DNA of 6,685 bases, from contig PKYZ01000143.1 in the NCBI GenBank assembly GCA_003132865.1, forward strand, positions 1 to 6,685, written 5' to 3'. The notes under the pieces were generated by a model, which saw nothing but the letters and a program-made list of their open reading frames with translations, did not search any database and was not told the origin of the DNA. How positions within the stretch are numbered: position 1 is the first letter of the stretch; the number at the start of each line of letters is the position of its first letter. The position numbers were made by a program, and so were the translations under genes. This document shows, one piece after another, positions 1 to 6,685 of this stretch. This DNA comes from Bryobacterales bacterium (lineage in GTDB: Bacteria; Acidobacteriota; Terriglobia; Bryobacterales; Bryobacteraceae).

Positions 1-124
1 GACATCGTGGAAGCGGTCGCGATAGAATGCCGGCTTCCGCGGGGAGGGCGCGGTCGAGACGCCATTGGTCGTTGACAGGAGAACCAATCGGCGCCAGAAT
101 CGTTATAGCCTTGGAGGTCCGTAA
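1..124. other. Upstream flank with possible decayed 3' end of a gene
   Basis: No intact gene is visible. On the plus strand one frame reads open from base 3 to a TGA at 126-128 that overlaps the next ATG (ATGA arrangement); its last residues, GEPIGARIVIALEVRK, look protein-like, but the first half is arginine-rich and unconvincing. Another frame starts DIVEAVAIE and stops at 73-75, and a third contains AVETPLVV. These fragments vaguely resemble a TonB C-terminal domain split by frameshifts, which is a weak guess. GGAGG at 113-117 serves the gene starting at 125. Confidence 0.15.
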
Positions 125-812
125 ATGAGGCTCCTTCTGATTCTTCTTCCGGCGTGCCTGTTCGCACAGGCCGGCTCTCCTGCGGCGGACCTCCGGCGCG
201 ATTCGCTCGCGAAGTGTGCCGCCGCGCCTATTGCCGACGTTCTAAGAGGCGCGGATGGATGGTTACAAACGTACGAGCGCAACGGTCCCGATCCACACGC
301 CCGCCCACCGTATTTGACGCTAGCCCGCTTCTACGCCTTGAAGGCCATCCGGACCGAAGAAATCCCGACGCTGTTGGAAAAGGGCGTTCACGAGCTTTCT
401 GCTCCCGGCTCGTACACACAGGCGCGTACGCATGGGAACTCTCCGTTCGAAGCCGATATCGAACGGGCGCTCGCGGCCAACGTCTACACCCAGATTAGGT
501 TGTATGACAAAGCGGGTGAACTGTTTGGCCCGAACCGGTAAAACTGTCGATCATACGAACGCCGCAGAACTCGACATGGGCAAGGCCCGAATCTTCGAGG
601 CCTTGCGGTTTCAATATTGGGACGGGATGACTCGTTTGGCAATTGCACAGGGCCGCAAAGACGACGCGCTGACCTGGGAACACGCGATTCTTACCAATCG
701 GAACAACGTTGCATCGCCGAGCCTGATTGAAGAGCACCGCCAGATAGCCCAGCAGCTTTGGAAGGAACTGGGCCGATCTGACGATTTCCAAAAGTGGCTT
801 TCGGGGGAATGA
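125..812 (+). pseudogene. Exported helical-repeat-like protein, frameshifted
   Basis: This gene of unrecognised function is broken by a single frameshift. It starts at ATG 125, which has GGAGG at 113-117 with a 7-base spacer. It opens with a short signal peptide (MRLLLILLPACLFAQA); the Cys at residue 11 is a poor lipobox because Pro is at -2. The first frame continues through helix-rich sequence (LARFYALKAIRTEEIPTLL, YTQIRLYDKAGELF) and stops at 539-541. The +1 frame then carries on sensibly (LARTGKTVDHTNAAELDMGKA, later LTWEHAILTNRNN) to TGA 810-812. Removing one T from the run at 524-526 would join them as GELLARTGKTVD, about 228 residues. The style recalls the helical region found before thioredoxin domains in some Acidobacteria TlpA-like proteins, but no CxxC thioredoxin domain follows. 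A sequencing error is an alternative to true decay. Confidence 0.7.
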
Positions 813-1187
813 GTAAGCGTCTCGGAGAGGAGAGACGAATTGAGGCCCGCGGAAGCGTGTGCACTGGGGGTGGGCACTGGCCCTCAGACCGACGGCCAAG
901 CCTAGCCTGTTGCCGAACCTCGCTGTCCGTCGCCGAGGGGGTTCCATGGCCTTGCCGGCCACCGCTCGCCCCGAACGTGTTCTACTGAAGATATCGGATT
1001 CCAGTGACCTCGGGGGGACTTGCCCCTCGCCCGATGGGCCGAAACTATTCGGAGCCTCGCTTGGATTTGTGTGCAGGTTTGGCCGGCGTTGCTTTCGCAA
1101 TCCCTTCCAACGAGCACAACCCCGTGGGACGGTTCGAATTCCGGCGCCTCGCCCGCCCCGGCGCGGCGGCCCGGCGCCGCGTCCACC
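813..1187. other. Gene-free GC-rich stretch
   Basis: I see no credible gene here. All frames are short or rich in Arg, Pro and Gly, with none preceded by a good ribosome-binding site, and no RNA gene or strong repeat stands out. Around 1050-1115 one plus frame reads hydrophobically (SLAWICVQVWPALLSQS) and could be the eroded signal peptide of the propeller remnant that follows. Confidence 0.5.
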
Positions 1188-1370
1188 CGGCGCGAGTACT
1201 TTCGCCGGTTGCGGTTCAGCCCAGACGGGAAGTATGCGCTGGGCCAGTCCGAGACCGGGATCGCGGTCCTCAGTGTAGAGCCCTTCCGCGTTGCATCCCG
1301 GGTTCCCGCTGAAAACGCCAGCGACACAGAGTTCACCTCCGACGGTCATTTTGTATTCCTGACCGGTGCG
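1188..1370 (+). pseudogene. WD40/PD40-like beta-propeller remnant
   Basis: One plus frame reads REYFRRLRFSPDGKYALG, then TGIAVLSVEPFRVASRVPAE and TEFTSDGHFVFLTGA. Two blades with the (F/Y)SPDGK-type turn (RFSPDGKYAL and EFTSDGHFVF) are typical of WD40/PD40 propeller repeats. Only about 60 residues survive: no clean start codon or ribosome-binding site precedes them, and the frame soon runs into the KTSC remnant and loses propeller character. A full propeller needs several times this length, so I read it as the N-terminal relic of an exported propeller protein. Its exact right end is uncertain because the next remnant overlaps in another frame. Confidence 0.6.
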
Positions 1371-1606
1371 TCGCACGCCAGTTCGCGCGAGCTCACGTAC
1401 GTCCATTCCCCCGCGCGACGCGTTCGCGCAGACGCGGAAGCTGCTGAAGCAGATCGGTCTACCGCTACTTCGGCGTTCCCGTGCAGATTTGCCAGGAGTT
1501 GTTGTCGGCCGAATCCAAAAGTGGCTATTTCAATTACCACATCCGGAACCGCTTCGCCTATACCCAGGTCCATCATGCAGCGTTGACCTCCGATTCACGG
1601 CACTGA
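1366..1606 (+). pseudogene. KTSC-domain small protein, frameshifted
   Basis: KTSC domains are small (about 60-80 residue) modules of poorly known function. The frame from 1454 to TGA 1604-1606 reads SVYRYFGVPVQICQELL, then AESKSGYFNYHIRNRFAY. It matches the family pattern of a Y-x-Y aromatic stretch, VPxxxyxxLLxAeSkGxYFN and a closing IRxxxxY. This frame is closed just upstream by TGA 1445-1447. The likely N-terminus lies in the neighbouring frame from a GTG at 1366 (VRRTPVRASSRTSI), resembling the usual opening with a conserved SS. About one extra base near 1445-1453 would explain the shift, and the strand between the two parts looks eroded. No ribosome-binding site is obvious. The C-terminal part is clear; the N-terminal join is inference. 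Confidence 0.6.
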
Positions 1607-1742
1607 CGTCCTCACGACGACTGATCAGCGCCTTGACAACCGGAGAGCGCCTTCATAAAGCATGCCCGCTGTCCTCGAAGATCCGCCTCTGCCCGGCCAA
1701 AACTATGCGGCATTACGCTGAGAGCGTGCGCCACATCGGCGA

Positions 1743-1751
1743 TGGTATAAA
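1743..1751 (+). promoter_or_regulatory. Candidate extended -10 promoter of the glycosidase-like gene
   Basis: TGGTATAAA matches an extended -10 element (TGn followed by TATAAA, 5 of 6 to TATAAT). No good -35 lies 16-18 bases upstream, as is common for extended -10 promoters. Transcription would begin near 1758, about 20 bases before the ATG at 1778 and just ahead of its ribosome-binding site. A TTGACA at 1633-1638 has only a poorly spaced partner (CATAAA, 15-base spacer), so it is a weaker alternative. Confidence 0.4.
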
Positions 1752-1777
1752 GTAAGATCTTCGCCCGAGGAGAAAAC

Positions 1778-3022
1778 ATGATCCGCATTGCATCGGCGCT
1801 CCTGTCCGTTGCCGTTTCGCCCTTCGCGGCCGCCGCGCAACAGTTCCCCACCCTCGAACCTCCAGCGCCGAAAAGCTTCGCCATTATGGCCTGGGGCGAC
1901 GCGCCCTCCGATATGGCGCAGTTGCGCGGAATGCGCGATGCCGGCCTGAATATTGCGGGCTTTTGCCGCGCCGAAGACCTCGACAAGGTCCGCGACGCGG
2001 GACTGGCCTGCTTCGTCTCCGATCCACGGATCGGCGGCTACGATTGGCAAGCCCTGCCTCCGGACAGCGAGATCCGCGGCCGGATTGGCGGCCTCGCGCA
2101 CCAGATCGGTTCCAACCCGGCGGCCATCGGATTCTTTCTCCGGGACGAGCCGCACGCGGCGTTGATGCCCGGATTGGCGCGCGTGGCGAAGATCGCGCGC
2201 GACGCCATGCCCGGCATGTGGCCCTATGTCAACCTGTTCCCGTACCGCGTGAGTCCGGAGCGCCTGGGAACCGATACCTACGACAAATATGTCCGCATGC
2301 TCGTCGATACCATCGGCCAGCCTTTCCTCAGCTACGACAACTATTCGCTGGTTGGCGGCCAGATGCTGGACTATTTCTACACCAACCTGGAGATCGTGCG
2401 GCGCCTGTCCATCGAGACGCAGACGCCGTTCTGGAACTGCATCCTGGCCAACGCGCACTTCAACTACATGGAGCCTTCCGACGCCACTTTCCATCTGCAG
2501 GTTTACGCCACGCTGGCCTACGGCGGCCGCGGCATTCAGTACTTCACCTACTTCGCGCCGGATGTCGGCAACTACCGCTTGGCGGCCATCGACCAGTTCG
2601 GCAACCGGACTCCCACGTGGGAGCGGCTGCGGCGGATCAACCTGGAGATCGCGGCCCTCGCGCCCACGATTTTGAAGCTGCGCAGCACCGGCGTGTTCCA
2701 TTATCCGGACGTGCCGGATCAGGCCAAGCCGCTCTCCGCCAGCAGGCTGGTGCGGTCCATCGATATAACGCAGCGCTTCGTAAAGCCGCCCGTCGCCGGA
2801 CGATTCCTGGTGGGCGAGTTTGAAGACCGCCAGGGACGCCCCTATGTGATGATCGTCAACCGAGACCTCAACAACAGCTTTCAGTTCCATCTGCATCTGG
2901 TGAAAGAAAACGCCAAGCTGATCCGCGTCTCGCCTTACACAGGCAAAGAAGAAGCGTTCGGCGGCGAAATGGACTGGCTGGCGCCGGGGGCTGGCATCCT
3001 GCTGCGGATCGTCGAGGAGTAG
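1778..3022 (+). CDS. Secreted TIM-barrel protein, putative clan-A-like glycoside hydrolase
   Basis: This intact 414-residue protein has AGGAG at 1768-1772, 5 bases before the ATG. An N-terminal signal peptide (residues 1-20, ending AAAA before QQFP) sends it across the inner membrane. Residues about 33-305 read as an alternating barrel: SFAIMAWG, the strand end GFFLRDEP (Asp123, Glu124, Pro125), SYDNY at 185-189, TPFWNCILAN, and GGRGIQYFTYF at 249-259. A DEP strand end followed by a GxxGxxYFxY strand is usual in clan-A beta-glycosidase-like folds such as GH42 relatives; Glu124 is a candidate catalytic acid. Residues about 340-414 (GEFEDRQGRPYVMIVNRD, YTGKEEA, LAPGAGILLRI) look like the C-terminal beta-sandwich that follows such barrels. 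Substrate and exact family are unknown, and the second catalytic carboxylate is not clear. The gene is a single unit; its stop overlaps the edge of the first tandem element. Confidence 0.7.
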   Translation: MIRIASALLSVAVSPFAAAAQQFPTLEPPAPKSFAIMAWGDAPSDMAQLRGMRDAGLNIAGFCRAEDLDKVRDAGLACFVSDPRIGGYDWQALPPDSEIRGRIGGLAHQIGSNPAAIGFFLRDEPHAALMPGLARVAKIARDAMPGMWPYVNLFPYRVSPERLGTDTYDKYVRMLVDTIGQPFLSYDNYSLVGGQMLDYFYTNLEIVRRLSIETQTPFWNCILANAHFNYMEPSDATFHLQVYATLAYGGRGIQYFTYFAPDVGNYRLAAIDQFGNRTPTWERLRRINLEIAALAPTILKLRSTGVFHYPDVPDQAKPLSASRLVRSIDITQRFVKPPVAGRFLVGEFEDRQGRPYVMIVNRDLNNSFQFHLHLVKENAKLIRVSPYTGKEEAFGGEMDWLAPGAGILLRIVEE

Positions 3023-3067
3023 TACGAAAGTGGGTTTTCAACCGACCTCATTTTGGAGTATGCTAGT

Positions 3068-3097
3068 AGCGGGACCGGGGGGACGCCCGATCCCGCT
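3068..3097 (-). terminator. GC hairpin after the small ORF, copy A
   Basis: A perfect 7-base stem, AGCGGGA with TCCCGCT, encloses a second stem (CGGG with CCCG). On the minus strand it follows the TAA at 3104-3106 that would end the repaired small ORF. The inner stem differs in sequence and length from copy B but still pairs. There is no T-run after it on the minus strand, so it is a structured 3' end rather than a canonical intrinsic terminator. Confidence 0.4.
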
Positions 3098-3116
3098 CGG
3101 CCATTACCGGTGGCCC

Positions 3117-3185
3117 TTACGGTGCCAGACGATAATGATCGTGAACTTGCCGAATGAGCGGCAGCTCAACTAGCAATTTGATCAT
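3117..3185 (-). pseudogene. Small hydrophobic peptide ORF, copy A, frameshifted
   Basis: On the minus strand, ATG 3185-3183 follows GGAGG (3199-3195) with a 9-base spacer. The ORF begins MIKLLVELPLI exactly as in copy B, then an extra base within 3152-3157 throws it into another frame (RQVHDHYRLAP) and it stops after 22 codons. Removing that base restores LIGKFTIIIVWHRKGHR and a TAA at 3104-3106. Compared with copy B the repaired peptide differs only by basic-for-basic changes (Arg/Lys and Arg/His), plus a silent Leu change. This suggests the peptide was once maintained in both copies. Confidence 0.5.
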
Positions 3186-3204
3186 GTAGTTGATCCTCCT
3201 TTCC

Positions 3205-3252
3205 GCTTCGACTGGAAGGCCCGGCCAGGAACCGGGCTTTCCCGGTCGAAGC
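3205..3252 (-). ncRNA. Leader hairpin upstream of the small ORF, copy A
   Basis: GCTTCGA (3205-3211) pairs perfectly with TCGAAGC (3246-3252). Inside, GGAA pairs with TTCC and GCCCGG with CCGGGC, making a long hairpin. On the minus strand it ends immediately before the Shine-Dalgarno of the small ORF. A segment farther upstream on that strand (TCTTTTCC, complement of 3294-3301) can pair with the GGAAAGG overlapping the Shine-Dalgarno, with one G-U pair. This would make a closed multi-stem leader; the folding is inferred by eye. Confidence 0.5.
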
Positions 3253-3376
3253 TCCGGTGCTTCTCTTGAGAACCCGCTCTTCCAATCTCCACAGGAAAAG
3301 ACCTCCGTATGTGCACTGCGCCAACCAGTGCCGGTTTCTCTTTGTTCCAGTCAGGCCTGGGACGGCTGCGGCTTGC

Positions 3377-3396
3377 GGGGTAGTACGGGGTAGTAC
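3377..3396. repeat. Tandem 10-mer GGGGTAGTAC x2 at the copy B edge
   Basis: GGGGTAGTAC occurs twice head to tail, the second unit forming the left edge of copy B. GTAGTACGAAA is also the left edge of copy A. The extra unit may mark how the second copy was inserted or duplicated. Confidence 0.8.
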
Positions 3397-3438
3397 GAAA
3401 TGGGGTTTAAAACGGACCGCGTTTTCGAGTATGCTAGT

Positions 3439-3470
3439 AGCGGGACCGGGGAGACGACCCCGATCCCGCT
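3439..3470 (-). terminator. GC hairpin after the small ORF, copy B
   Basis: AGCGGGA (3439-3445) pairs with TCCCGCT (3464-3470), and inside it CGGGG pairs with CCCCG around a short loop. On the minus strand it lies 7 bases after the small ORF's TAA (3479-3477). No T-run follows, so it may be a transcript-end stabilising structure rather than a classical terminator. Confidence 0.4.
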
Positions 3471-3476
3471 CGGCCA

Positions 3477-3557
3477 TTACCGCCTGCCCTTACGGTGCCA
3501 GACGATAATGATCGTGAATCTGCCGATCAGCGGCAGCTCAACTAGCAATTTGATCAT
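3477..3557 (-). CDS. Putative 26-residue hydrophobic peptide with basic C-terminus
   Basis: On the minus strand, ATG 3557-3555 is preceded by AAAGGAGG (3571-3564), a near-perfect Shine-Dalgarno 6 bases upstream. The peptide starts MIKLLVELPLIG, continues with a hydrophobic FTIIIVW stretch and ends HRKGRR before TAA 3479-3477. A single short hydrophobic run with a positively charged tail is the look of a membrane-active small protein. The same design is found in type I toxins of the Ldr and Ibs kinds, which also sit in tandem repeats; that comparison is by architecture, not sequence. The frame stays open upstream to about 3791, but a start at 3557 is favoured by the Shine-Dalgarno and because the upstream frame is not conserved between copies. 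A leader peptide, or an ORF carried passively by a structured RNA, are alternatives. Confidence 0.45.
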   Translation of the reverse strand: MIKLLVELPLIGRFTIIIVWHRKGRR

Positions 3558-3573
3558 TGAGATCCTCCTTTCT

Positions 3574-3621
3574 GCTTCGAAGGGAAGGCCCGGCCGTAAG
3601 CCGGGCTTTCCTGATCGAAGC
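3574..3621 (-). ncRNA. Leader hairpin upstream of the small ORF, copy B
   Basis: GCTTCGA (3574-3580) pairs with TCGAAGC (3615-3621); within it GGAA pairs with TTCC and GCCCGGC with GCCGGGC around a CGTAA loop. Compared with copy A, the terminal loop and internal linkers differ while the stems are kept, and the upper stem gains one pair. On the minus strand it directly precedes the Shine-Dalgarno. Upstream TCCTTTC (complement of 3664-3670) is an exact complement of the GAAAGGA in the Shine-Dalgarno region, so the start could be masked. Confidence 0.5.
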
Positions 3622-3762
3622 TCTGGTGCTTCTCTCGAGAACCCGTTCTTCCAACCTCCACAGGAAAGGACTCCGCATGTGCAGTGCGCCAATCGGCGCC
3701 GGGTTCTTCTTCTTCTGCTCCGGCCGCGAACCGAATCGTAACGATTTGCGAGATTGCCGCGC

Positions 3763-3791
3763 GTGACTTCTCGGCCCGCATTTGCTAACAT
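3763..3791 (+). promoter_or_regulatory. Candidate promoter for the S1 gene
   Basis: GTGACT (3763-3768, 4 of 6 to TTGACA) and TAACAT (3786-3791, 4 of 6 to TATAAT) are separated by 17 bases. Transcription would begin near 3798 and leave a leader of about 150 bases before the chosen start codon. The promoter lies just right of tandem copy B, which points the other way. Confidence 0.4.
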
Positions 3792-3804
3792 ATTGATCTG
3801 TTAG
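3785..3804. promoter_or_regulatory. Inverted repeat over the S1 promoter, possible operator
   Basis: CTAACA (3785-3790) and TGTTAG (3799-3804) form a perfect 6-base inverted repeat around TATTGATC. It overlaps the candidate -10 and start point, a position where a bound regulator would block initiation. It could also be a small hairpin at the 5' end of the transcript. No cognate regulator is visible in the window. Confidence 0.3.
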
Positions 3805-3949
3805 TGCCTTGCTGGTGAATCAGGCGGGCCGGTTTCGATGCAAATTCCTGGAATCCATTGAGATCGCACCATTTCCTCGCTTGTGTTATGTCTCGCGGCT
3901 GTAAGTCCCCGGCAATCGGCTGATGGAGTGTCTCGCGGAGGCGTCGGTA

Positions 3950-5668
3950 ATGGCCGTCGATCAGGGCAAAGAGCAGGTGGACGACTTGGTCCAGCCGGAT
4001 AGCGAAAGCTACAAATCTTTGCTCGACGAGTATACCCATCTGGCCCCCGCAGAGGGCGAGGTGCTCCAAGGCACCGTCCTCAAGGTCAATGCCAAGGACG
4101 TGATCGTCGATTTCGGGTACAAATCCGAAGGTCTCGTGCCTATCGAGCAGTTCCTCAGCCCCAGCGGAGAGCTGAGTGTACAAGCCGGCGATGTCGTGGA
4201 CGTGATGATCGATCACGGCGAGCAGCCGGAAGGCTACATTCTGCTTTCCCACGCCAAAGCCGCCCGCGTGCGCGTGTGGGACAACCTGGAAAAGGCCTTC
4301 GCGGATCAATTGGTGCTCCTGGGGCACGTAATGGGGAGAGTCAAGGGCGGGCTTTCGGTGGACGTCGGCATTGAGGCCTTCATGCCTGGCTCGCAGGTCG
4401 ATCCGCGCCCTGTGCATCACCTCGACTCGTTCATAGGCCAGGACGTTCCGGTCAAGATCGTCAAGGTGAACCGCCGCCGCGGCAACGTGGTGGTTTCGCG
4501 CAAGCTGGCCGTCGAGCAGGAGGTCAACCAGCGCAAGGCCGCCACGCTCGATCAACTGCACGAGGGCGCCGTCGTTACGGGTGTGGTCAAGAATCTGACC
4601 GAGTACGGTGCCTTCGTCGACTTAGGGGGCCTGGATGGCTTGCTGCACGTCACGGACATGTCGTATGGCCGCGTGGGACATCCGTCGGAAATCGTGCACG
4701 TGGGCGACACCATCACGACCAAGGTGCTCAAGTTCGACCGGGCCAAGGAGCGCGTCTCGCTGGGCCTGCGGCAGATGGCGCCGGACCCCTGGGAAACCGT
4801 CGCCGAGCGATTCCCGCTGAACGGCCGCGTCATGGGCCACGTGGTGAATGTCACCGATTACGGGGCGTTCGTGGAACTCGAGGCCGGCGTGGAAGGTCTC
4901 ATCCACATCACCGAGATGACCTGGTCGCGGCGCATGAAGCATCCTTCGAAGGTGGTGCACGTGGGCGACCAGGTGGAGGCCGTCGTGCTGGAAGTGCACC
5001 CGCGGGACCGGCGTATTTCCCTCGGCCTCAAACAGCTTGAGGCCAACCCCTGGACGACCATCGACAGCCGCTACAGCATCGGTTCCGTGGTCGAAGGCCG
5101 CGTGCGCAACATGACCGATTTTGGCGCCTTCATCGAGATCGAGGAAGGCATCGACGGACTCGTGCATGTCTCGGATCTCTCGTGGACCAAGCGGGTCAAG
5201 CATCCGTCGGAGGTTTTGAAGAAAGGCCAACTCGTGCAGGCGGTGATTCTGAATATCGACGCCAAGGGGCACCGGTTGTCGCTGGGCATCAAGCAGCTCC
5301 AGCCGGACGCCTGGGAGACGTACTTGCAAAACCACCAGCCGGGCGATATCGTACATGGGCGTATCTCTCGCCTGGCGGGTTTTGGGGCATTCGTGGAATT
5401 GGCGGAGGGCGTCGAGGGACTTTGCCATTTTTCGGAAGTGCCGGGCTACTCCGGGCGGCGCTCGGCGGAGCCTCCCGTGGCGGTGGGCCAGGAGTATGAT
5501 TTCAAGATCGTCAAGATGAGCGAGGCGGAAAAGAAGATCGGGTTGAGCCTCAAAGCGGTCACCCACGACGAGGAGAAAGGCCGCCTGGCCGACTATCAAC
5601 GGCAGGCGGCGGCGGGCGCTGCCACCATCGAAGAGGTGCTGAGCCTCAAAAATCGCAGCGCGGAATAG
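3950..5668 (+). CDS. rpsA: 30S ribosomal protein S1 (six S1 domains)
   Basis: S1 binds single-stranded mRNA and brings it to the 30S subunit for translation initiation. The 572-residue product has six S1 (OB-fold) RNA-binding domains at about residues 35-102, 119-186, 203-274, 289-361, 376-449 and 463-535. Domains 3-6 show the classic YGAFV/FGAF(V/I) plus GLxHxx(D/E) and RxSLGxKQ signatures; domains 1 and 2 are divergent, as usual for the ribosome-binding end. Length and domain number match proteobacterial S1 (about 557 residues). I chose ATG 3950 because GGAGG at 3937-3941 sits 8 bases upstream; the in-frame ATG 3923, nine codons earlier, lacks a ribosome-binding site. A tail of about 35 residues (EEKGRLADYQ onward) follows the last domain. 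The following HU/IHF gene echoes the rpsA-ihfB order of enterobacteria. The leader holds an 11-codon reading frame (3888-3923) without a ribosome-binding site. Confidence 0.93.
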   Translation: MAVDQGKEQVDDLVQPDSESYKSLLDEYTHLAPAEGEVLQGTVLKVNAKDVIVDFGYKSEGLVPIEQFLSPSGELSVQAGDVVDVMIDHGEQPEGYILLSHAKAARVRVWDNLEKAFADQLVLLGHVMGRVKGGLSVDVGIEAFMPGSQVDPRPVHHLDSFIGQDVPVKIVKVNRRRGNVVVSRKLAVEQEVNQRKAATLDQLHEGAVVTGVVKNLTEYGAFVDLGGLDGLLHVTDMSYGRVGHPSEIVHVGDTITTKVLKFDRAKERVSLGLRQMAPDPWETVAERFPLNGRVMGHVVNVTDYGAFVELEAGVEGLIHITEMTWSRRMKHPSKVVHVGDQVEAVVLEVHPRDRRISLGLKQLEANPWTTIDSRYSIGSVVEGRVRNMTDFGAFIEIEEGIDGLVHVSDLSWTKRVKHPSEVLKKGQLVQAVILNIDAKGHRLSLGIKQLQPDAWETYLQNHQPGDIVHGRISRLAGFGAFVELAEGVEGLCHFSEVPGYSGRRSAEPPVAVGQEYDFKIVKMSEAEKKIGLSLKAVTHDEEKGRLADYQRQAAAGAATIEEVLSLKNRSAE

Positions 5669-5669
5669 C

Positions 5670-5698
5670 TTGCAAAAATCGCCCGTTCAAGAGATACT
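5670..5698 (+). promoter_or_regulatory. Candidate promoter for the HU/IHF gene
   Basis: TTGCAA (5670-5675) and GATACT (5693-5698) each match consensus at 4 of 6 positions with a 17-base spacer, in the 65-base gap after S1. The start point would be near 5705, ahead of AAGGAG (5720-5725). It would allow HU and HIT expression independent of S1; no terminator-like hairpin separates them, so read-through is also likely. Confidence 0.4.
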
Positions 5699-5733
5699 GC
5701 GGTAACGGCTTGAGAGGACAAGGAGAATAGCAA

Positions 5734-6063
5734 ATGACCAAGGCCGATCTGATTGAAGAGGTCTCGCGCGTGGTCGAGATGACGCGGAAAGAATCCGAAG
5801 TCATCGTAGAGGCCATTTTTGACAGCATCGTGCGTTCGTTGCGCACCGGCGACAAGATCGAGATTCGCGGTTTCGGCAGTTTCCGCACGCGGCAGCGCCA
5901 GCCCCGCATCGGACGCAATCCGAAGACCGGCGCGCGCGTCGAGGTGCCGGCCAAGAAGATCCCTTATTTCAAGCCGAGCAAGGAACTGAAAGACGTGGTG
6001 AACAGTTCCGTCGCGGCGCCGGCTTCCGATCCCGCTTCCGGCGAGCCCGCGCCCACGCTCTAG
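5734..6063 (+). CDS. HU/IHF-family DNA-bending protein
   Basis: This nucleoid protein binds DNA as a dimer and bends it by inserting a proline from each beta-arm. The 109-residue sequence shows the whole fold: N-terminal helices (MTKADLIEEVSRVV, SEVIVEAIFDSIV), the GDKIEIRGFGSF signature at 39-50, the arm PRIGRNPKTG (57-66) with the intercalating Pro63, and the closing IPYFKPSKELKDVVN. GRNPKTG plus GFGSF looks closer to IHF-beta than to classical HU, and the position after rpsA matches ihfB of enterobacteria, but HU and IHF cannot be separated safely here. An 18-residue Ala/Pro-rich tail (SSVAAPASDP onward) extends past the usual 90-95 residues. The start is fixed by AAGGAG at 5720-5725, 8 bases upstream. 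Confidence 0.92.
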   Translation: MTKADLIEEVSRVVEMTRKESEVIVEAIFDSIVRSLRTGDKIEIRGFGSFRTRQRQPRIGRNPKTGARVEVPAKKIPYFKPSKELKDVVNSSVAAPASDPASGEPAPTL

Positions 6064-6070
6064 CGGCGGT

Positions 6071-6553
6071 ATGGATTACCTCTGGAGTCCGTGGCGTTAT
6101 CAGTACGTGACCACCGCGGACCAGGCGGCCGAGTGCATTTTCTGCGTGTTGCCCGCGCAGCATCGCGACCGCGAGAACTACATTGTCTACCGCGCTCGCC
6201 TCAATTTCGTGATCCTGAACCGCTTTCCCTACACCTCGGGCCACCTCATGGTGGTTCCGTATGAACACGCGCCGGCGCTCGAAAAAGTGGCGGAAGATAC
6301 GGTGATGGAGATGATCCTGCTGGCGCGCCAGGCGGAGACGCACCTGCGCGCCAACTATCAGCCAGATGGCCTCAACATGGGCATCAACATCGGCAAAGCC
6401 GCCGGCGCCGGCGTGGCCGGACACATTCACATGCACGTGCTGCCCCGCTGGGTGGCGGACGCCAATTTCATGACTTCGGTGGGCGAGACCCGCGTGCTGC
6501 CGGAGGATCTCGCGACGACCTACGAGAAGCTCTCGCGCGCGTGGAGCCGGTAG
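6071..6553 (+). CDS. HIT-domain protein, Ap4A phosphorylase/hydrolase-like
   Basis: HIT proteins cleave nucleoside phosphoanhydrides through a histidine nucleotidyl intermediate; relatives with this N-terminus act on diadenosine polyphosphates such as Ap4A in the cytoplasm. The 160-residue protein begins with the WSPWRYQY motif typical of that branch and has CIFC (Cys22, Cys25), a likely zinc pair. It then has FVILNRFPYTSGHLMVVP and the catalytic HIT motif GHIHMHVLPRW (His118, His120, His122), with His120 the expected nucleophile. A GINIGKAAGAG loop precedes the motif. The length is near the family norm, with nothing missing. The start lies 7 bases after the HU stop with only a weak GGCGG before it, so translation is probably coupled to HU. 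The exact substrate cannot be told from sequence. Confidence 0.88.
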   Translation: MDYLWSPWRYQYVTTADQAAECIFCVLPAQHRDRENYIVYRARLNFVILNRFPYTSGHLMVVPYEHAPALEKVAEDTVMEMILLARQAETHLRANYQPDGLNMGINIGKAAGAGVAGHIHMHVLPRWVADANFMTSVGETRVLPEDLATTYEKLSRAWSR

Positions 6554-6558
6554 GAGGG

Positions 6559-6576
6559 TGGGCTTTTTTAAGCCCA
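6559..6576. terminator. Hairpin after the HIT gene, possible terminator
   Basis: TGGGCTT and AAGCCCA form a perfect 7-base stem with a TTTT loop, starting 5 bases after the HIT stop codon. There is no T-run on the 3' side on either strand, so intrinsic termination is uncertain. It could equally be a REP-type palindrome belonging to the transposase gene that follows. Confidence 0.45.
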
Positions 6577-6594
6577 ACACTGTTCACTTCGGTG

Positions 6595-6616
6595 GGACAG
6601 GCCTCCTGGCCTGTCC
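6595..6616. repeat. REP-like palindrome upstream of the RAYT gene
   Basis: GGACAGGCC and GGCCTGTCC form a perfect 9-base inverted repeat around TCCT, followed by TTCT. It lies 22 bases before the ATG of a REP-associated tyrosine transposase. RAYT genes are normally flanked by such palindromes, which makes a REP the best reading. A terminator for the HIT transcript remains possible, given the T-rich bases after it. Confidence 0.55.
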
Positions 6617-6638
6617 TTCTGCGGGTTACAAATACGTC

Positions 6639-6685
6639 ATGAGCTACTACGAACGGAATCTGCCACACTGGCAACCTGAGGGTGC
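6639..6685 (+). CDS. REP-associated tyrosine transposase (RAYT, IS200-like), 5' fragment
   Basis: The window ends 15 codons into this gene. The visible start, MSYYERNLPHWQPEG, matches the opening of Y1-type transposases of the RAYT group, which usually continue with an FVTxRLxGSLP-like strand. These enzymes nick and move REP palindromes at single-stranded DNA hairpins using a tyrosine nucleophile, which lies beyond the window. No clear ribosome-binding site precedes the ATG. The start is chosen because the motif begins right after it. Whether the gene is intact cannot be told. Confidence 0.6.
   Translation, partial: MSYYERNLPHWQPEG

Follow-up and report, generated by a model that had tools for sequence, protein, structure and literature searches.

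The Ldr/Rdl and Ibs/Sib systems of Escherichia coli combine a tandem arrangement with an opposing antisense RNA. A tandem arrangement with a predicted antisense RNA was likewise found in the DNA studied here, a stretch of 6,685 nucleotides (nt), called the window throughout, from a member of the Bryobacterales, an order of the Acidobacteriota (assembly GCA_003132865.1, contig PKYZ01000143.1, positions 1 to 6,685). The window carries two copies of a unit of about 350 nt, the cassette, which appears to be a type I toxin-antitoxin-like system not described before. As read from its sequence, the unit has the anatomy of such a locus, i.e. a toxin-like tiny open reading frame (ORF), an overlapping predicted antisense RNA gene, a structure able to hide the Shine-Dalgarno sequence (SD) and a tandem, multi-copy habit. 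An antisense RNA gene almost certainly overlies a genuine micropeptide gene in this unit.

The aapA/IsoA loci of Helicobacter pylori resemble the cassette in their small ORF, their cis-overlapping antisense RNA, their several chromosomal copies and, furthermore, in SD-sequestering hairpins built from leader or ORF sequence (PMC6733600). AapA3 comprises 30 amino acids (aa) and IsoA3 80 nt (PMC6733600); unlike IsoA3, the antisense RNA predicted here would be about 175-195 nt long and end at the toxin leader hairpin. Multiple copies and tiny hydrophobic toxins (IbsC, LdrD) are a likeness to Ldr/Rdl and Ibs/Sib, and LdrD carries cationic C-terminal residues (PMC8309996). By eye, however, the peptides of these systems are unrelated to those of the cassette. 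The promoter and terminator geometry of Ldr/Rdl and Ibs/Sib differs from that of the cassette, too, and we know of no sequence similarity between the cassette and aapA/IsoA.

Before the cyanobacterial case msoT1/msoA1 of Microcystis aeruginosa, type I systems had been found only in Proteobacteria, Firmicutes and Tenericutes, and this narrow range is thought to reflect a bias of the search methods (PMC12390103). Like msoT1/msoA1, the cassette would be a type I-like locus outside these three classical phyla, but in a host from the Acidobacteriota instead of a cyanobacterium (PMC12390103). The main text of PMC12390103 contains no occurrence of 'acidobacteri', and no type I toxin-antitoxin system of Acidobacteria was found in the literature searched, which had partial coverage and excluded preprints.

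Two tandem copies of the cassette

A repeat search detected four pairs of direct repeats of 111, 73, 68 and 44 nt (87%, 85%, 93% and 86% identity) at a spacing of 369-373 nt, which merge by alignment into two copies of about 350 nt on the minus strand. This confirms the two ordered direct copies, offset by about 370 bases, that a preliminary description of the window had noticed. Copies A and B show the same order of parts on the minus strand: leader, long GC hairpin, AAAGGAGGAT, ATG, short ORF and GC hairpin. The combined motif of the SD and ATGATCAARYTNYTNGT is present twice in the window but absent from all of 200 shuffles. Both copies are located in the gap between an ORF of 414 aa (1778-3022) and an rpsA-like gene with six S1 domains (3923-5668). 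Their features are:

3387..3745 (limits approximate), minus strand: cassette copy B, from repeats and alignment; covariance model match at 3628-3476 with 157.6 bits, copy B itself being in the training set
3477..3557, minus strand: copy B ORF, 26 aa, MIKLLVELPLIGRFTIIIVWHRKGRR; identical peptide in locus L002, one change in L001, and coding test of group I
3562..3571, minus strand: copy B SD, AAAGGAGGAT, from alignment and motif count
3574..3621, minus strand: copy B outer leader stem with arms 3615-3621 and 3574-3580, from alignment and the family-wide helix 1
3583..3611, plus strand: copy B predicted antisense terminator hairpin with a T-containing tail from 3607 (TTTCCTGATC), from tail T content in the family and wobble asymmetry
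3430..3435, plus strand: copy B antisense -10 hexamer TATGCT, from -10 scoring; -35-like TTTAAA at 3406-3411
3439..3470, minus strand: copy B 3' GC hairpin directly after the ORF and predicted 5' end of the antisense RNA, from hairpin search and stem scoring
3439..3616, plus strand: copy B predicted antisense RNA of about 178 nt, which would span ORF and SD, from promoter and terminator
3016..3372 (limits approximate), minus strand: cassette copy A, from repeats and alignment; covariance model match at 3259-3103 with 153 bits, copy A itself being in the training set
3117..3185, minus strand: copy A ORF, frameshifted after codon 11, 22 aa, from alignment with copy B
3193..3202, minus strand: copy A SD, AAAGGAGGAT, from alignment and motif count
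3214..3242, plus strand: copy A predicted antisense terminator hairpin (on the minus strand the inner leader hairpin), from alignment, tail and wobble; outer stem arms 3205-3211 and 3246-3252
3059..3064, plus strand: copy A antisense -10 hexamer TATGCT, from -10 scoring; -35-like TTTTCA at 3035-3040
3068..3097, minus strand: copy A 3' GC hairpin and predicted 5' end of the antisense RNA, from hairpin search
3068..3247, plus strand: copy A predicted antisense RNA, from promoter and terminator

A tiny ORF had been described for each copy. This holds for copy B, but in copy A an additional base behind codon 11 shifts the frame, and the ORF ends with codon 22. We read copy A as a decayed copy; its counterpart at the same position in the metagenome-assembled genome (MAG) bog_159 (L001) has an open ORF. 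The description had also placed the parts on the minus strand, where we found them, but much of the signal, namely the antisense -10 and the terminator-like hairpin, lies on the plus strand. The plus-strand hairpin at 3583..3611 is the same DNA as the minus-strand inner leader hairpin of copy B.

A micropeptide gene overlain by a predicted antisense RNA gene

At least five peptide groups share a common RNA chassis. Group I comprises MILLLVKFRSVVGRLTALIVWTRKGRR and the peptide of the window (MIKLLVELPLIGRFTIIIVWHRKGRR); groups II and III are represented by MLTLWLKIVTVVVTIRMKLTIRKAR and MSLLMLFVVLILVLLRKRRIKFKIDIDL, and groups IV and V, both with a GTG start, by VTLSLKIVFLTFTVEIIFRRKR and VIHLIIPKGYRLTIKVSPDGFVEITLKP. 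Intact ORFs of these groups encode 22-42 aa, below the roughly 60 aa that bound the small proteins of type I systems, except that L096_3218 and L099 of group V extend further, past the point at which L096_3609 stops. In one group IV copy (L084:3907-4059) the aligned start is ATT, as compared to GTG or ATG in its group mates, which would be a rare start codon if real.

Coding selection was scored in groups I-IV as the mean BLOSUM62 value of changed codons and compared with column shuffles. The scores were 1.53 for group I (16 sequences; shuffled -0.12, standard deviation (s.d.) 0.33), 3.23 for group II (12 sequences; 0.18, s.d. 0.53), 1.36 for group III (11 sequences; -0.26, s.d. 0.30) and 1.38 for group IV (5 sequences; -0.18, s.d. 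0.34), and in each group the other five frames scored lower than the annotated one. Conservative codon changes in the annotated frame, more so than in the remaining five, identify the ORF as a protein gene. In six of the 63 processed copies the ORF was judged broken by eye (window copy A, L061_3741, L063_49, L067_3659, L068_3880 and L092_3974), five of which, window copy A included, have kept the antisense -10 and the 3' hairpin. L063_49 and L068_3880 are alike in their ending and may be variant rather than broken ORFs. At L061:3741-3869 the SD and start codon are seemingly lost, and by eye an antisense -10 (TATAAT), the 3' hairpin and a T-tailed GC hairpin are kept; beside the intact copy L061:4024-4180, this copy seems to be an antisense-only remnant.

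The set used for the antisense promoter was reduced from these 63 copies. L058_1, L061_3741 and L067_3659 were left out, being cut, lacking SD and ORF, or decayed, no hairpin was located in L073_3753 and L099_240, and six copies with an imprecisely located hairpin were manually set aside (L066 at an assembly gap, L081 at a contig end, L097, L101, L096_3218 and L060), leaving 52 copies. From these, 27 representatives with less than 25% common 8-mers were chosen. Within 22 nt beyond the 3' hairpin, the best antisense -10 score averaged 7.34 over the representatives, compared with 1.58 in dinucleotide shuffles (s.d. 0.51, maximum 3.04); over all 52 copies it was 7.85 compared with 1.49 (s.d. 0.40). 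Control regions scored -0.28 (antisense strand, 45 nt further out) and 0.48 (sense strand, about 50-70 nt out). The hexamers vary but remain -10-like (TATAAT, TATGAT, TATACT, TACAAT, TAGAAT, TATAGT and others). Of the six copies set aside, L060 (TATGCT), L101 (TAAAAT) and L097 (TAATTT) have such a hexamer, too, but L066 and L096_3218 do not, and L081 has no sequence there. Hexamer and hairpin are separated by 2-11 bases, so that antisense transcription would start near the hairpin base.

At the other end, the 10-nt tail of the leader hairpin contains on average 6.26 T on the antisense strand and 3.48 on the sense strand; the antisense value was higher in 25 of the 27 representatives and lower in one, and group III offers a clear example of a T tail (GCGGGGTTTTGCATTTT). 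Furthermore, when the inner leader hairpin is read on the sense strand, A.C oppositions, which are G.U on the antisense strand, outnumber G.U by 38 to 17, and the 3' hairpin has the opposite bias with 46 G.U against 26 A.C on the sense strand. This wobble bias tells the folding strand, which is antisense for the leader hairpin and sense for the 3' hairpin. Given the antisense -10 and the terminator-like leader hairpin, an antisense RNA that covers SD and ORF in about 175-195 nt is expected from each unit; three representative antisense RNAs, as cut for folding, measured 185-193 nt.

The plus-strand RNA, which has its own predicted promoter and terminator as well as a strong 5' hairpin, might instead be a small RNA that carries an anti-SD stretch (CCUCCUUU), acts in trans and is the principal product of the unit, the ORF being secondary. 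We regard this as very unlikely, because in four groups the ORF is under protein-level selection, with lower scores for the other five frames, and because most of the 63 copies have an SD 3-12 bases upstream of a start codon.

The sense RNA is structured, too. In the outer and inner leader stems together, 92.7% of the alignment cells are paired, whereas shuffles reach 80.0% and slid stems no more than 58.1%, and 13 of 15 pairs changed on both sides compared with 7.7 in shuffles; the alignment was fitted to the structure, so these values lean towards structure. The preliminary description had asked for conserved stems with compensatory changes; stems with changes on both sides were found here. 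The outer leader stem, helix 1 throughout the family, is paired in 97.6% of the cells, with changes on both sides in four of its five pairs. The 3' hairpin reached a stem score of 32.9 (shuffled 18.1, s.d. 0.78), and 23 of 27 hairpins lay above each one of their 20 shuffles. A structure that hides the SD in the toxin mRNA is known from several type I systems, though not from all. Here codons 2-4 pair with the SD, and both partners change in step across the groups (GGATC/GATCC, GGGTC/GATCC, GGAAC/GTTC, GTGAG/CTCAC, GTGT/ACAC, GTGG/CCAC). The resulting SD hairpin has a mean of -10.08 kcal/mol in 28 copies, compared with -7.56 (s.d. 0.36) when ORF starts were swapped between copies and -6.47 (s.d. 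0.42) when shuffled. A switch in the leader between mutually exclusive helices (GAAGC-GCTTC-GAAGC) appeared plausible by eye and was rejected, as a crude helix test gave 8.48 compared with 8.19 (s.d. 0.30) in shuffles.

Each unit, with its conservation, the protein-level selection on its ORF, the antisense -10, the terminator-like hairpin and, on average, the SD hairpin, probably works like a type I toxin-antitoxin locus. As to expression, pairing in the cell, toxicity, membrane target and trigger, we infer the following course. The minus strand would be transcribed into an mRNA encoding a tiny peptide, hydrophobic and basic in most cases. From the plus-strand promoter directly behind the 3' hairpin, an RNA antisense to ORF, start codon and SD would be made, stopping at the leader hairpin, which is terminator-like in that direction. 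During ongoing antisense synthesis this RNA would pair with the mRNA and block translation, and the SD hairpin with codons 2-4 may help to hold the mRNA closed. A drop in antisense synthesis would then allow the peptide to be made and to perturb the cell membrane.

Several results weigh against this type I interpretation. In the 22 nt beyond the 3' hairpin, a -10 score of 3.23 is also reached on the sense strand, so the signal lies partly on both strands, which is explained by the partly palindromic nature of -10-like hexamers. The antisense -35 is weak (1.20 compared with -0.03, s.d. 0.50, in the representatives), and many terminator tails fall short of a full T run. A sense-strand sigma-70 promoter was not above chance (4.30 compared with 3.74, s.d. 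0.33). After synonymous recoding of codons 2-6 the SD hairpin still had -9.14 kcal/mol (s.d. 0.47), a small gap to the native value, so most of what exceeds the swap control is attributable to the peptide sequence itself; moreover, among the 28 folded copies the SD hairpin is weakest in window copy B (-4.8). Finally, group IV is weakly hydrophobic, with a grand average of hydropathy (GRAVY) of 0.42, and group V, carried by the same cassette, is not hydrophobic (GRAVY -0.08, charge +1, 3 sequences). Short hydrophobic peptides, named at the outset as typical of type I loci, are seen in groups I-III (mean GRAVY 0.75-1.14, mean net charge +3.8 to +6.0), weakly in group IV and not in group V, and the same grading results from the feature of a hydrophobic peptide with a cationic C-terminus (PMC8309996). 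Cytosolic type I toxins exist, e.g. SymE and RalR (PMC12390103, PMC8309996).

The peptides of groups IV and V would also suit a regulated micropeptide gene, i.e. small membrane or accessory proteins without toxicity whose level is tuned by the antisense RNA, with no addiction or defence module involved. Group V is near neutral and not hydrophobic and has a recurring motif IPxGYR...DGxxEhxLEP. Multiple copies with a patchy and tandem occurrence and decayed ORFs beside kept antisense promoters fit addictive modules better, although this is an argument from habit, and we consider the regulated micropeptide gene unlikely. Within group V (L096, L099, L101, L095, L116, L120 and L123) the motif takes the form IPxGY(R/K)...(D/N)GxxE(V/I)xLEP in near-neutral peptides, and this was the only peptide type found outside the family (G240, L120).

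No named family had been recognised in the window, which was borne out by the database searches; the lack of a relation to any named toxin family also counts against a type I locus. Ten peptides gave no Pfam or PADLOC match and one NCBIfam match below the cut-off, in libraries that may lack some type I toxins, and the two longest peptides had two and one matches among predicted proteins, the sole name being 'hypothetical protein'. Rfam gave no match at the element in the window; in seven other loci the sole match on the element was a small nucleolar RNA (snoRNA) model with E 0.33, below the gathering score. A stretch at L101:2097-2539 on the minus strand matched the cspA thermoregulator (42.9 bits, E 9.2e-8), below the Rfam gathering score of 78.

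Occurrence in one family of the Acidobacteriota

An exact pattern scan of a collection holding one genome for each of 84,980 species matched two stretches, both in the Bryobacterales MAG bog_159. One is the counterpart of the window (90.7% identity over 3631-5774) and likewise contains a pair of copies, of which one has an interruption by N; the other stretch lies at a different place in the genome. By blastn, nine matches on seven contigs were obtained in the whole bog_159 genome, and 8 of 200 genomes of its family had matches (best three candidates per genome scored). A covariance model of 18 sequences (R1) hit 22 of 237 family genomes and a model retrained on 61 sequences (R2) hit 41. Apart from G158, G201, G215, G229 and G230, the R2-hit family genomes were inspected (36; the 22 also hit by R1 and 14 more read at one locus each). 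At least two of the 36 are plain hairpins (G070 and G133), and G153 and G205 look decayed. The preliminary description had proposed to look for independent homologues with structure and ORF, and such homologues are present in a single Acidobacteriota family, where dozens of genomes carry them.

When the class was sampled evenly, 30 of 399 genomes were hit by R2, 20 of which belong to the family. All ten genomes outside the family were inspected, and SD and ORF were found in G240 (L120) only, the other nine being plain hairpins. In a sample of the phylum 8 of 396 genomes were hit, comprising G001 and seven weak hits, of which G323, G367 and G370 are plain hairpins and G601, G637, G688 and G692 are unlike the cassette.

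At least 12 scored candidates each were found in G050 and G163. The R2 scan of the family revealed neighbouring matches in the same orientation on eight contigs (G050:C615 with three copies, G050:C679, G001:C326, G187:C97, G187:C8, G118:C94, G163:C28 and G031:C379). Their starts are 339-434 bases apart, about one unit, with the exception of G001:C326, which is cut by the contig end. By a crude ORF call the copies are intergenic except for two overlain by a long ORF. No neighbour gene was common to the set; 14 clusters of 2-4 similar neighbours were found, several of them within one locus.

Such dispersed, mostly intergenic, multi-copy and tandem occurrence is also expected of a non-coding mobile repeat, resembling a miniature inverted-repeat transposable element (MITE) or a REPIN, in which the open frame would be incidental, and an imperfect inverted pair (2946-2967 and 3693-3714, 77% complementary) brackets most of both copies. 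This pair, however, is located inside the 414-aa ORF and inside copy B instead of at unit ends, and the inverted-repeat listing holds no pair belonging to a single copy. Coding selection, strand-specific wobble and promoter hexamers kept in kind with varied letters are further points against a mobile repeat, which we regard as extremely improbable; instead of the match to a non-coding repeat that was named beforehand as a refuting case, a conserved coding frame was found. Exact patterns for groups III, I and II, one each, matched no stretch in viral contigs, and blastn gave no match for the copy pair of the window in plasmids and phages or for one group III and one group II copy in plasmids.

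Among 20 rpsA loci compared for an empty site upstream of rpsA, only that of G001 (L142) had the element (R2) or the 414-aa neighbour; no clean junction was obtained, because some of the other loci have little upstream sequence. In the window, the 414-aa ORF (1778-3022, plus strand) had no Pfam match at E 0.01, and its start resembles a signal peptide. The ORFs 125-541 and 432-812 on the plus strand overlap in different frames and look like one gene split by a frameshift; neither has a Pfam match.

Significance of the cassette family

The preliminary proposal, a type I toxin-like system of Acidobacteria or else a novel family of structured RNAs that include a small ORF, is supported in both its parts by the homologues, the stems, the coding selection, the tandem arrays and the predicted antisense gene. 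Tentatively, and with less than even confidence, the cassettes may be seen as a modular class, in which a constant chassis (antisense promoter, 3' hairpin, SD hairpin and leader terminator) carries at least five exchanged peptide types (hydrophobic-cationic, near-neutral, perhaps beta-hairpin-like). One silencing chassis would then serve different toxins or effectors, perhaps as a diversifying repertoire for addiction or against phages that numbers about a dozen copies in some genomes.

Strand-specific wobble together with -10 conservation may be a general route to such loci without RNA sequencing. This Acidobacteriota family was found by its anatomy and not by toxin similarity, and its dozens of natural variants provide a comparative set along with covariance models, which serves to ask how such loci arise, duplicate, decay and swap their peptides.

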